64,000 bases of DNA from the NCBI RefSeq assembly GCF_014863545.1, contig NZ_CP062260.1, positions 558,001 to 622,000 of the forward strand, written 5' to 3'. The translations under genes and the position numbers were made by a program. Positions 2,510-43,303 of this stretch are shown piece after piece. This DNA comes from Paenibacillus sp. JNUCC32 (lineage in GTDB: Bacteria; Bacillota; Bacilli; Paenibacillales; Paenibacillaceae). Numbering within the stretch: position 1 is the first letter of the stretch; each line of letters starts with the position of its first letter. Below the pieces are notes generated by a model. That model ran no database searches. It was not told the DNA's origin and was given only the letters and a program-made list of their open reading frames with translations.

Positions 2510-3394
2510 ATGATTCAACACGCCTCCGTAACCCGGAGCCTATTCAATATTTGCAATCTTATATTTTTGATCGCGCTCTCACTGCTCTGCATCCTTCCAG
2601 TCATCCAGGTCATTGCCGTCTCATTCAGCTCCAGCAGCGCTGCAGCGGCAGGGCTAGTCAAGCTATGGCCGGTCGAATTCTCACTGAAATCATATGAATT
2701 TATTTTGAAGAAGAAAGATTTTCTGGGGTCATTCCTGATTTCCATTCAGCGGGTAATATTGGGTACTGGTATCAGTATGTTTTTAACCGTAACGCTGGGT
2801 TACGCGCTTTCCAAAGAAGCGAAGGATTTCCGGATGAGAACCTTTTATGCCTGGTATTTTGTAATTACGATCTTATTCAGCGGCGGTTTAATTCCATGGT
2901 ACTTGACGATTAAATACACCCATTTAATGGATACAATTTGGGCGCTAGTCATTCCGGGGGCGGTAACCGTGTTTAACGTCATTCTGCTGCTCAATTTTTT
3001 TCGGGGACTGCCCAAGGAGCTAGAGGAATCGAGCTTCATGGATGGAGGAAGTCATTGGATAACGCTGTGGAAAATATATCTCCCGCTGTCCATGCCTGCT
3101 ATTGCGACGGTCTCGCTGTTTACAATCGTCGGGCACTGGAATTCCTGGTTCGATGGTCTCATGCTCGTGAATTCGCCAAGCGATTACCCACTCGCCACGT
3201 ATTTGCAGACTGCTATCATTCAACAGGATTTCGCTAACATGCGCGCAGAGGATGTGAAAACCTTGTCGGAGATTTCGGATCGGACCACACGTGCTGCGCA
3301 AATTTTTATAGGCGCATTGCCGATCATGGCTGTCTATCCGTTTTTGCAAAAATATTTCATGACCGGCCTGGTAATGGGAAGCGTGAAGGAATAG
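2510..3394 (+). CDS. Sugar ABC transporter permease (LplC/YtcP type)
   Basis: Second permease of the importer, 294 residues with about six membrane helices. The start chosen is the ATG at 2510, directly behind a GGGGGG site; a longer frame from 2450 would overlap the previous gene and lacks a ribosome site. The EAA-like loop begins near residue 172 ('EESSFMDGG'). The C-terminal 'YPFLQKYFMTGLVMGSVKE' ending is highly characteristic of YtcP-type permeases. It lies 20 bases downstream of its partner and is followed after another 20 bases by the GH38 gene. Confidence 0.95.
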   Translation: MIQHASVTRSLFNICNLIFLIALSLLCILPVIQVIAVSFSSSSAAAAGLVKLWPVEFSLKSYEFILKKKDFLGSFLISIQRVILGTGISMFLTVTLGYALSKEAKDFRMRTFYAWYFVITILFSGGLIPWYLTIKYTHLMDTIWALVIPGAVTVFNVILLLNFFRGLPKELEESSFMDGGSHWITLWKIYLPLSMPAIATVSLFTIVGHWNSWFDGLMLVNSPSDYPLATYLQTAIIQQDFANMRAEDVKTLSEISDRTTRAAQIFIGALPIMAVYPFLQKYFMTGLVMGSVKE

Positions 3395-39358: not shown

Positions 39359-39442
<84 letters not shown>

Positions 39443-41655: not shown

Positions 41656-41684
41656 TTGACTCATTCGTAATTCCGTTTTATATT
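41656..41684 (+). promoter_or_regulatory. Promoter of the riboswitch transcript
   Basis: TTGACT (41656-41661), 17-base spacer and TATATT (41679-41684). Transcription would begin near 41691, 25 bases before the aptamer. Confidence 0.75.
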
Positions 41685-41714
41685 AACTATGGTTGTTGAA
41701 GAGAAAAATAGGCT

Positions 41715-41821
41715 TATTCGTATATCCCTGAAAATAAGGTTCAGGGGTTTCTACAAGGGACCTTAAATTCCTGACTACGAATAGGGTGCGCAAGCATACC
41801 TATTCGGAGCAGGATTTTTTT
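41715..41821 (+). ncRNA. Purine riboswitch (guanine-type aptamer) with overlapping terminator
   Basis: P1 is TATTCGTA (41715-41722) with TACGAATA (41776-41783). P2 is CCCTGAA / TTCAGGG (41726-41746) with loop AATAAGG. The J2/3 core is GTTTCTAC. P3 is AGGGA / TTCCT with loop CCTTAAA. The junction GACTACG has C at the specificity position (41775), indicating guanine rather than adenine. A terminator, with TCCTG (41769-41773) pairing CAGGA (41810-41814), CGAATAGG (41778-41785) pairing CCTATTCG (41799-41806) and T7 after it, uses the 3' strands of P1 and P3. Ligand binding should therefore prevent termination. A conserved A in J1/2 is T here (41725). Confidence 0.9.
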
Positions 41822-41872
41822 GTGCCTGAAATCGGTGTGCGCAAACGACAGTCAAACACACAGGGGGATATG

Positions 41873-43303
41873 ATGAGCAAATATGATGTTATCGTTGTTG
41901 GTGCCGGTCCTGCGGGAATTTTTGCATGTTATGAGCTGACATTGAAATCACCGGGCAGCAGGGTGCTGCTGGTTGACAAGGGACATGATATTTACCGGAG
42001 AAGCTGTCCGATTCTGGAGGAGAAGATTAAGCTGTGTCCTCCGGCGGTAGGCCGGAAGGAATTCGCCGGTTGCCTGCCGGCCTGCTCGATTACGGCCGGA
42101 TTTGGTGGAGCCGGGGCATACAGTGACGGCAAATTCAACATAACCACAGAGTTTGGCGGCTGGATGACCGATTATTTGCCCGGATCCAAAGTCATGGAGC
42201 TCATTCAATATGTGGACGCCATCAACCTGGAGCATGGGGCGACGCCTGCCATTACAGATCCGACGACCCATGCGATCCGCGATATTGAACAGCGAGGATA
42301 CGCAGCAGGCCTTAAGCTGCTTCGCGCACAGGTAAGGCATCTTGGAACCGAGCAGAATTTGGAAATCCTGAAGTCGATTTATGAATATTTAAAGACAAGG
42401 ATTGATATGGCATTCCGGGCGGAGGTCGAGGACATCGTCACCGTCAAGGAGGACGGCACCCACCGCGTCACCGGCATCGCGATGAAGGGCGGAGAGGTCC
42501 ATGAGGCGAATCTGGTGATGGTTGCCCCCGGCCGCGACGGGTCTGCCTGGTTGACCGGCATTCTTAAAAAACGCAGATTGAAAATGCATAATAACCAAGT
42601 GGATGTCGGCGTGCGCGTCGAAACCTCGGATGTGGTCATGCGTGAAATCAACGAGCATTTGTATGAAGGCAAATTCATCTTCAACACTTCGGTCGGGACC
42701 CGCGTGCGGACATTCTGCAGTAATCCTTCCGGCCATGTCGTGGTGGAAAACCACAGCGGCGTCATGGCCGCCAACGGCCATTCCTACAAGGATCCGGCGT
42801 TGGGCTCGGCCAATACGAACTTTGCGCTGCTGGTATCCCATAAGTTTACGGAGCCGTTTGATAAGCCTAACGAATACGCGCGCGAAATATGCAAGCGGGC
42901 GAATGATCTGTCCAGCGGCGGGGTCATCGTGCAGAAATTCGGCGACGTGCTTCGCGGCCGGAGATCCACCGAGGGCAGAATCCGCGAAGGGTTTCTTGAG
43001 CCGACGCTGAAGGAAGCCGTTCCAGGCGATCTTGGCTTGGTGCTGCCTTACAACACGATGAAAAGTCTGATCGAGATGGTTGAAGCGCTTGATCAAGTCA
43101 CGCCGGGGATCGCGTCGGAGCACACGTTGTTCTATGGCGTCGAGGCCAAGTTTTACTCCGCAAGGCCGAAGCTGTCGGATTCCTTCGAGACGGAGATCAA
43201 GGGGCTGTATTGCGGCGGGGATGGCGCCGGAATTACCCGAGGGCTTGCTCAGGCAGGAGCCGCCGGGGTCTGGATTGCCCGGAACATGCTGAACCATATT
43301 TAG
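41873..43303 (+). CDS. FAD-dependent dehydrogenase (COG2509-like), riboswitch-controlled
   Basis: Flavoprotein of 476 residues. The FAD motif 'VVGAGPAGIFACYEL' is at residues 8-22; a Cys-containing segment 'CPILEEKIKLCPPAVGRKEF' follows, then 'GFGGAGAYSDGKFN' and a C-terminal FAD-binding 'GLYCGGDGAGITRGLAQAGA'. This matches a widespread group of uncharacterised NAD(P)/FAD-dependent dehydrogenases. The ATG at 41873 has AGGGGG 5 bases upstream; the frame continues upstream into the riboswitch without use. Control by a purine aptamer suggests a link to purine salvage, oxidation or nucleotide metabolism, but the substrate is unknown. Confidence 0.88.
   Translation: MSKYDVIVVGAGPAGIFACYELTLKSPGSRVLLVDKGHDIYRRSCPILEEKIKLCPPAVGRKEFAGCLPACSITAGFGGAGAYSDGKFNITTEFGGWMTDYLPGSKVMELIQYVDAINLEHGATPAITDPTTHAIRDIEQRGYAAGLKLLRAQVRHLGTEQNLEILKSIYEYLKTRIDMAFRAEVEDIVTVKEDGTHRVTGIAMKGGEVHEANLVMVAPGRDGSAWLTGILKKRRLKMHNNQVDVGVRVETSDVVMREINEHLYEGKFIFNTSVGTRVRTFCSNPSGHVVVENHSGVMAANGHSYKDPALGSANTNFALLVSHKFTEPFDKPNEYAREICKRANDLSSGGVIVQKFGDVLRGRRSTEGRIREGFLEPTLKEAVPGDLGLVLPYNTMKSLIEMVEALDQVTPGIASEHTLFYGVEAKFYSARPKLSDSFETEIKGLYCGGDGAGITRGLAQAGAAGVWIARNMLNHI

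Follow-up and report, generated by a model that had tools for sequence, protein, structure and literature searches.

In the adenine riboswitch pbuE, the terminator is made from the 3' strands of the aptamer, and the ligand turns the gene on. A riboswitch class for 8-oxoguanine, reportedly published in 2023, is said to be linked to the 8-oxoguanine deaminase gene, and the 8-oxoguanine riboswitch occurs in Paenibacillaceae. Several guanine-related classes are treated in a further paper, where the bases contacting guanine in known structures are U22, U51 and C74 (PMC9295807). For Paenibacillus, that paper predicts ON regulation for guanine-II and OFF regulation for guanine-I; xanthine-II and 2'-dG-III are further classes with predicted ON regulation (PMC9295807). 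There, xanthine-II is marked by U51G together with insertions in J2/3 and J3/1, 2'-dG-III has junctions deviating in all three regions and goes with a nucleoside hydrolase gene, and a guanine-I-like class sensing 8-oxoguanine is reported (PMC9295807).

The window analyzed here, the whole stretch of 64,000 nucleotides from Paenibacillus sp. JNUCC32, contains a guanine-I-type aptamer that, joined to a pbuE-style terminator, probably forms an ON switch for the gene of an FAD-dependent oxidoreductase. The Rfam covariance model of the purine aptamer, RF00167, matches the window at 41698-41797 on the forward strand with 74.1 bits (E 2.8e-11; cut-off 37 bits). The features of the locus are as follows.

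41656-41684, + strand: promoter-like site TTGACT-17-TATATT, 10 of 12 consensus matches
41698-41797, + strand: purine riboswitch aptamer (RF00167 match, 74.1 bits)
41713-41722, + strand: P1 5' strand, pairing with 41776-41785
41723-41725, + strand: J1/2, with U22, A23 and U24 (the Rfam consensus has A at 24)
41726-41746, + strand: P2 hairpin, 41726-41732 paired with 41740-41746
41733-41739, + strand: P2 loop with GG at its end, expected from the family to kiss the CC of L3
41747-41754, + strand: J2/3, GUUUCUAC, full length, U47 and U51 kept
41755-41773, + strand: P3 hairpin, 41756-41760 paired with 41768-41772; the first pair, 54-72, is an A.G opposition
41774-41775, + strand: J3/1, with A73 and C74, the latter the ligand-pairing base by analogy
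41776-41785, + strand: P1 3' strand, common to the terminator 5' arm
41769-41821, + strand: intrinsic terminator, 5' arm 41769-41785, 3' arm 41799-41814, then T7 (41815-41821)
41862-41868, + strand: likely ribosome binding site AGGGGGA, from the sequence
41873-43303, + strand: gene of an NAD(P)/FAD-dependent oxidoreductase of 476 aa (P0001), ATG at 41873, named from Pfam, a structure match and homologue names

The window also has a tRNA gene at 39359-39442 (Rfam RF00005, 50 bits).

Position 74 is C (41775), and U22, U47 and U51 are also present within full-length junctions, which is the guanine-I arrangement. U47 is a further guanine-contact base. The U74 of adenine riboswitches is replaced by C at 41775, and the insertions of guanine-II and xanthine-II are absent, J2/3 reading GUUUCUAC and J3/1 reading AC; the U51G that also belongs to xanthine-II is likewise missing. 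Canonical J2/3 and J3/1 and a different target gene set the aptamer apart from 2'-dG-III. A preliminary description had claimed a guanine-class purine aptamer with all core elements and C at the specificity position, and had called for an RF00167 covariance search with comparison of homologues; the search gave the 74.1 bits above, an aptamer was found before all 80 named loci described below, and the canonical pocket bases point to guanine. Two positions are off consensus, U24 (41725) and, at the foot of P3, the A54.G72 opposition (41755/41773). The first had already been noted as an A-to-T change in J1/2, and T is indeed read there, while the second was absent from that description. Paenibacillus lautus NBRC 15380 has the same core aptamer without any difference in sequence.

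The aptamer and its overlap with the terminator can be read directly in the sequence. The terminator 5' arm at 41769-41785 consists of TCCTG, ACTA and CGAATAGG, and lies opposite a 3' arm at 41799-41814 that consists of CCTATTCG-GAG-CAGGA. The 5' arm is built from the 3' strands of P3, J3/1 and P1, which is the ON platform of pbuE, and it agrees with the earlier statement that the terminator takes the 3' strands of both P1 and P3. Since these strands are reused, aptamer and terminator are mutually exclusive, and an ON switch is predicted. Position 73 is unpaired in the window's own terminator. The fold of 41765-41820 has -25.5 kcal/mol; when the sequence following the aptamer was dinucleotide-shuffled 100 times, this energy was never reached. 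A simple terminator scan of the stretch found none (0.4 expected), probably because it allowed no internal loop. Three promoter-like sites were found against 1.8 expected, so the site at 41656-41684 is weak taken alone; it would place the transcript start near 41691. For transcripts folded from 41691, all 10 P1 pairs are present at the ends 41785, 41790, 41795, 41800 and 41803, and none remains from end 41806 on, where the terminator replaces P1. At full length, enforcing the aptamer costs 10.9 kcal/mol relative to the free fold, which contains the terminator. Switching must therefore be kinetic, and the ligand would have to act between the ends at which aptamer and terminator form; the ligand of the pbuE adenine switch is known to act in this way.

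From these folds we infer a co-transcriptional mechanism. RNA polymerase would transcribe the aptamer first. In the absence of ligand, the terminator 3' arm would capture the 3' strands of P1 and P3 together with J3/1, including C74, and transcription would end at the T-run. Bound guanine would keep P1, P3 and J3/1 in the aptamer, the terminator would be blocked and the gene would be read; the enzyme may then handle surplus guanine or a derivative of it. The OFF regulation that PMC9295807 describes for guanine-I in Paenibacillus does not apply to this ON-type platform. The guanine-I class is defined by its pocket and not by the direction of regulation.

A scan with one genome per species gave 427 protein relatives, and the best 80 of these were used as named loci; they come from Paenibacillus, Fontibacillus, Brevibacillus, Cohnella and one isolate named Bacillus. 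An aptamer precedes the same NAD(P)/FAD-dependent oxidoreductase gene in all 80 of these best 80 of 427. Seventy-nine were detected by a pattern within 700 bases upstream, and the constancy of C74 and of most J2/3 bases in these 79 is partly by construction, as the pattern fixed them. The remaining one, in Paenibacillus sanguinis (L098), was detected by Rfam at 3209-3308; it lies about 690 nt from the gene, and what stands between them is unrelated sequence. The 79 pattern loci and the window make 80 leaders, and 79 of these have a T-run in reach; in P. zeisoli (L080) the aptamer is kept and a T-run was not found.

The terminator includes three or more bases of the P3 3' strand in 79 of these 79 leaders, and in 77 it also includes five or more of the P1 3' strand. 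Shuffled leaders, in which the sequence following the aptamer was dinucleotide-shuffled, often show the overlap when the energy is disregarded (1152 of 3950), so overlap alone is weak evidence. Overlap of both strands with a dG of -17 or lower was found in 77 of 79 leaders vs 267 of 7900 shuffles (100 per leader), and the real energy was reached by at least one shuffle in 100 in 10 of the 79. Because MAFFT misaligned the terminator 3' arms, pairing was tallied per sequence. In the terminator, position 72 forms G-C in 72 leaders, A-U in 5 and G-U in 2, and position 73 forms G-C in 42, A-U in 13, G-U in 12 and U-G in 1, and is unpaired in 11, including the window; C74 is paired with G in 76 of 79. 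In these conservation and covariation counts, identical and near-identical leaders stand as separate rows. We read the pattern as selection on the exchange between aptamer and terminator. The predicted ON logic, which the preliminary description had put forward from one locus, is strongly supported by this comparison, in which anatomy, conservation in related leaders and covariation of J3/1 with the terminator 3' arm agree. Of the 79 homologues, 71 have U at position 24 and 8 have A; at position 73, G stands in 59, A in 19 and U in one, and 72 have A at position 54. A54 and G73 lie outside the Rfam consensus.

The genome of the window has six RF00167 matches. The other five are before purE, xpt and an NCS2-type permease, all OFF-like, and two more. 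One aptamer of this genome (L004) has U74, precedes an MFS transporter, was called ON and looks like pbuE. Another (L002, C1:6032854-6032955) has C74 and precedes an adenine deaminase relative; no terminator was found for it, and it is perhaps under translational control. A genus sample of 75 aptamers was assembled from these five, 30 listed loci and 40 picked by hand from the listed matches, leaving out FAD-linked aptamers and favoring high scores. In this sample, 69 aptamers have C74, of which 53 are OFF-like, 6 look ON and 10 are without a found terminator; the 6 that look ON all precede an amidohydrolase gene. Counting L185, L188 and L190 as OFF-like is a judgement, since each also has, at an earlier T-run, a weaker hairpin with its start inside the aptamer. 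The six U74 aptamers were all called ON, L189 and L196 not cleanly.

A pattern search of 118 genomes of the bacterial family gave matches in 68, and its reversed control gave none. Thirty loci listed from this search precede the flavoenzyme (20), the amidohydrolase (6) or an EamA-like transporter (4); 28 are ON-like and 2 are without a found terminator. A search with a shorter P3 gave seven NCS2-type permeases, one EamA-like transporter and, in another bacterial family, one flavoenzyme, with targets assigned by Pfam for L298 and L305 and by eye for the others, and 9 of 9 were ON-like. These two results make ON-like C74 switches a recurrent theme of the bacterial family. The C74 aptamers before EamA-like transporters (L297, L305, L307-L309) are ON-like in 5 of 5, and a part of these transporters in purine efflux is plausible. 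ON-like C74 aptamers also precede NCS2-type permeases at L296, L298-L303 and L220, although permeases of this type mostly follow OFF-like switches. The preliminary description had called a guanine-class ON switch unusual. This stands for the genus sample, in which 53 of 69 other C74 aptamers are OFF-like and 6 ON; it falls short where ON-like C74 aptamers precede EamA-like and NCS2 transporters, and where ON regulation of guanine-II is predicted in Paenibacillus (PMC9295807). In the open-licence papers searched, neither an ON guanine-I switch nor this flavoenzyme as its target was found described. New is the widely conserved group with a guanine-I pocket, ON wiring as predicted and an unusual target, and already known is the ON prediction for guanine-II.

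Genes of 8-oxoguanine deaminase (NF006055) are present in 13 of 100 genus genomes, and an RF00167 aptamer precedes all 13. In each of them J2/3 is one base shorter, a mark of the 8-oxoguanine class that was derived here from these 13 loci. These aptamers (L335-L347) have an ON-type terminator by eye, and they are probably the published 8-oxoguanine switch. Another group (L246-L275), whose C74/G73/U24 aptamers vary very little and have ON-type terminators, precedes an amidohydrolase gene. NCBIfam names this amidohydrolase a 5'-deoxyadenosine deaminase (NF005557, 684 bits, cut-off 522), and it reaches 270 bits with the 8-oxoguanine deaminase model, below the cut-off of 532. The group was considered as a part of the 8-oxoguanine class and set aside, given this assignment and the different J2/3 of the true 8-oxoguanine deaminase loci.

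In other Bacilli, A73G, mostly with a base other than C at 54, was found by pattern in 31 of 398 genomes, with the reversed control matching in 13. Thirty listed A73G loci precede guaA (4) or NCS2-type permeases (26; by eye, L216 checked), and 28 of them are OFF-like, one is ON-like (L220) and one is without a terminator. Among the 53 OFF-like C74 switches of the genus sample, G73 occurs in 7 and U24 in 10, and 7 of these 10 precede xpt-like genes (L183 checked). Both bases were considered as specificity marks; since OFF-like switches before usual guanine targets carry them too, neither marks a new ligand, and the suggestion that the change at 41725 may alter specificity is not supported.

The mean identity of FAD-linked aptamers is 0.78 to amidohydrolase-linked, 0.62 to guanine-type A73 and 0.65 to 'adenine' aptamers, and for 64 distinct FAD-linked sequences the nearest group is amidohydrolase-linked in 36, 'adenine' in 25 and guanine A73 in 3, the 'adenine' set here and in the tree including the C74 aptamers L184, L185, L188 and L190. 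A FastTree clade with support 0.73, in a tree that is weak as short aptamers make it, unites 62 of the 64 with 7 amidohydrolase and 5 adenine ON aptamers. The P3 design common to FAD-linked and amidohydrolase-linked aptamers could be convergence. Outside the FAD-linked group, the closest sequences to the window aptamer itself are two guanine-type A73 aptamers that precede relatives of adenine deaminase (0.78), followed by the amidohydrolase-linked ones at 0.75.

Because the FAD-linked group resembles the amidohydrolase-linked ON group more than guanine A73 aptamers, an altered ligand common to both groups is possible. The same ON mechanism might thus answer to another guanine-like ligand, perhaps the substrate of the flavoenzyme, with U24, G73 and the lost 54-72 pair tuning the pocket. 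We consider this unlikely, though a serious contender: the kinship seen in 36 of 64 distinct sequences, the change of position 73 and of the 54-72 pair in most members and a target other than the usual guanine genes speak for it, but the bases in direct contact with the ligand are canonical, G73 and U24 recur in OFF-like switches of usual guanine targets, and the window has A73. A tentative extension, in which we place somewhat less trust, is that the FAD-linked aptamers, perhaps with the amidohydrolase-linked ones, form an unrecognized variant class, whose ligand would be a guanine derivative besides guanine, 8-oxoguanine and xanthine, and which would activate the flavoenzyme that consumes it. 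Membership in the 8-oxoguanine class itself is improbable. It would agree with the bacterial group, the ON wiring, the redox-enzyme target and the guanine-I-like 8-oxoguanine-sensing class reported in PMC9295807, but J2/3 of the window is full length and the 13 of 13 deaminase-linked aptamers lack one base there, on which ground this class was rejected for the window aptamer. Guanine is our first choice and the most likely ligand, about twice as probable as all other ligands together.

The predicted ON direction would be reversed by a hidden antiterminator, with the ligand acting as in the OFF switch xpt. The prevalence of OFF-like wiring among C74 switches of the genus sample lends this some color, but the aptamer itself serves as the terminator 5' arm, the T-run follows about 30 nt later with little room, and the overlap is kept in 77 of 79 leaders, so that we hold it to be highly improbable. 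That the overlap arose by chance or has decayed and regulates nothing, to which the missing T-run of P. zeisoli and the distant aptamer of P. sanguinis could be added, is scarcely credible against conservation and covariation across 79 leaders.

The ON switch preferred here would control a flavoenzyme with three domains above cut-off (PF21688, PF01134 and PF07992), whose solved relative is 3nlc_A, an uncharacterized protein (E 4.8e-21). Of 299 phylum genomes, 228 have a match to the family. Among the matches listed, 49 of 91 genomes have a homologue upstream of purA, in the same orientation and at a distance of 31-238 nt; the count is 49 of 88 when three genomes of the same class, in which purA lies elsewhere, are left out. 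These purA-adjoining homologues are distant (44-53% identity), and in 10 genomes with a relative of 65-72% identity and a listed purA the relative is not beside purA. Of 27 homologues scanned outside the bacterial family, none had an RF00167 match within about 1.5 kb, and 5 of the 27 are purA-linked. For the 80 named loci (best 80 of 427), no partner gene was kept within up to 4 kb on each side; the widest neighbor cluster covered 18 of 80, with shadow frames of the flavoenzyme set aside. A plasmid search gave no match. Cys45, Cys55, Cys67 and Cys71 of P0001 are invariant in 24 aligned homologues, and they are a possible metal or Fe-S site. The structure prediction of the flavoenzyme had a mean pLDDT of 49 and was left unused. 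In one genus genome (G069:C16), the flavoenzyme gene is in pieces with an internal stop.

Taken together, the purA neighborhood and the purine switch make it plausible that the flavoenzyme has a purine-related role. A detoxifying, catabolic or redox-linked step would agree with induction by surplus guanine, which is a guess. In this way, a widespread flavoenzyme family would be tied to purine metabolism by two independent signs, the riboswitch in Paenibacillus, Brevibacillus and relatives and the purA neighborhood elsewhere in the phylum. If guanine is the ligand, one genome holds guanine-I aptamers of opposite sign, OFF-like for purE and xpt and ON for the flavoenzyme, which would make the logic of guanine homeostasis testable. 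For members of RF00167, there is also a caution that U24 and G73 by themselves are no sign of changed specificity.

Compared with known systems, the window switch agrees with guanine-II in being a predicted guanine ON switch of Paenibacillus, whereas guanine-II has an extra J2/3 base and most other xanthine-II variations (the J3/1 insertion), and its targets are mostly phosphoribosyltransferase genes instead of a flavoenzyme (PMC9295807). The deaminase-linked 8-oxoguanine aptamers are likewise guanine-I-like with an ON-type terminator, but differ in the shorter J2/3 and in the gene. The amidohydrolase-linked ON aptamers share U24, C74 and the ON-type terminator with the window, their G73 matches most FAD-linked homologues and they are the group nearest to the FAD-linked set in sequence, but they keep the C54-G72 pair in 29 of 30 and precede a gene that scores above cut-off as 5'-deoxyadenosine deaminase (NF005557). 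With guanine-I of xpt and purE, the window has in common the three-stem junction, U22, U47, U51, C74 and the RF00167 match, and it differs in its predicted ON instead of OFF direction, in U24, in A54.G72 and in the flavoenzyme target. With the pbuE adenine riboswitch, it shares the terminator from aptamer 3' strands and the ON logic, joined here to C74 instead of U74 and to another gene.
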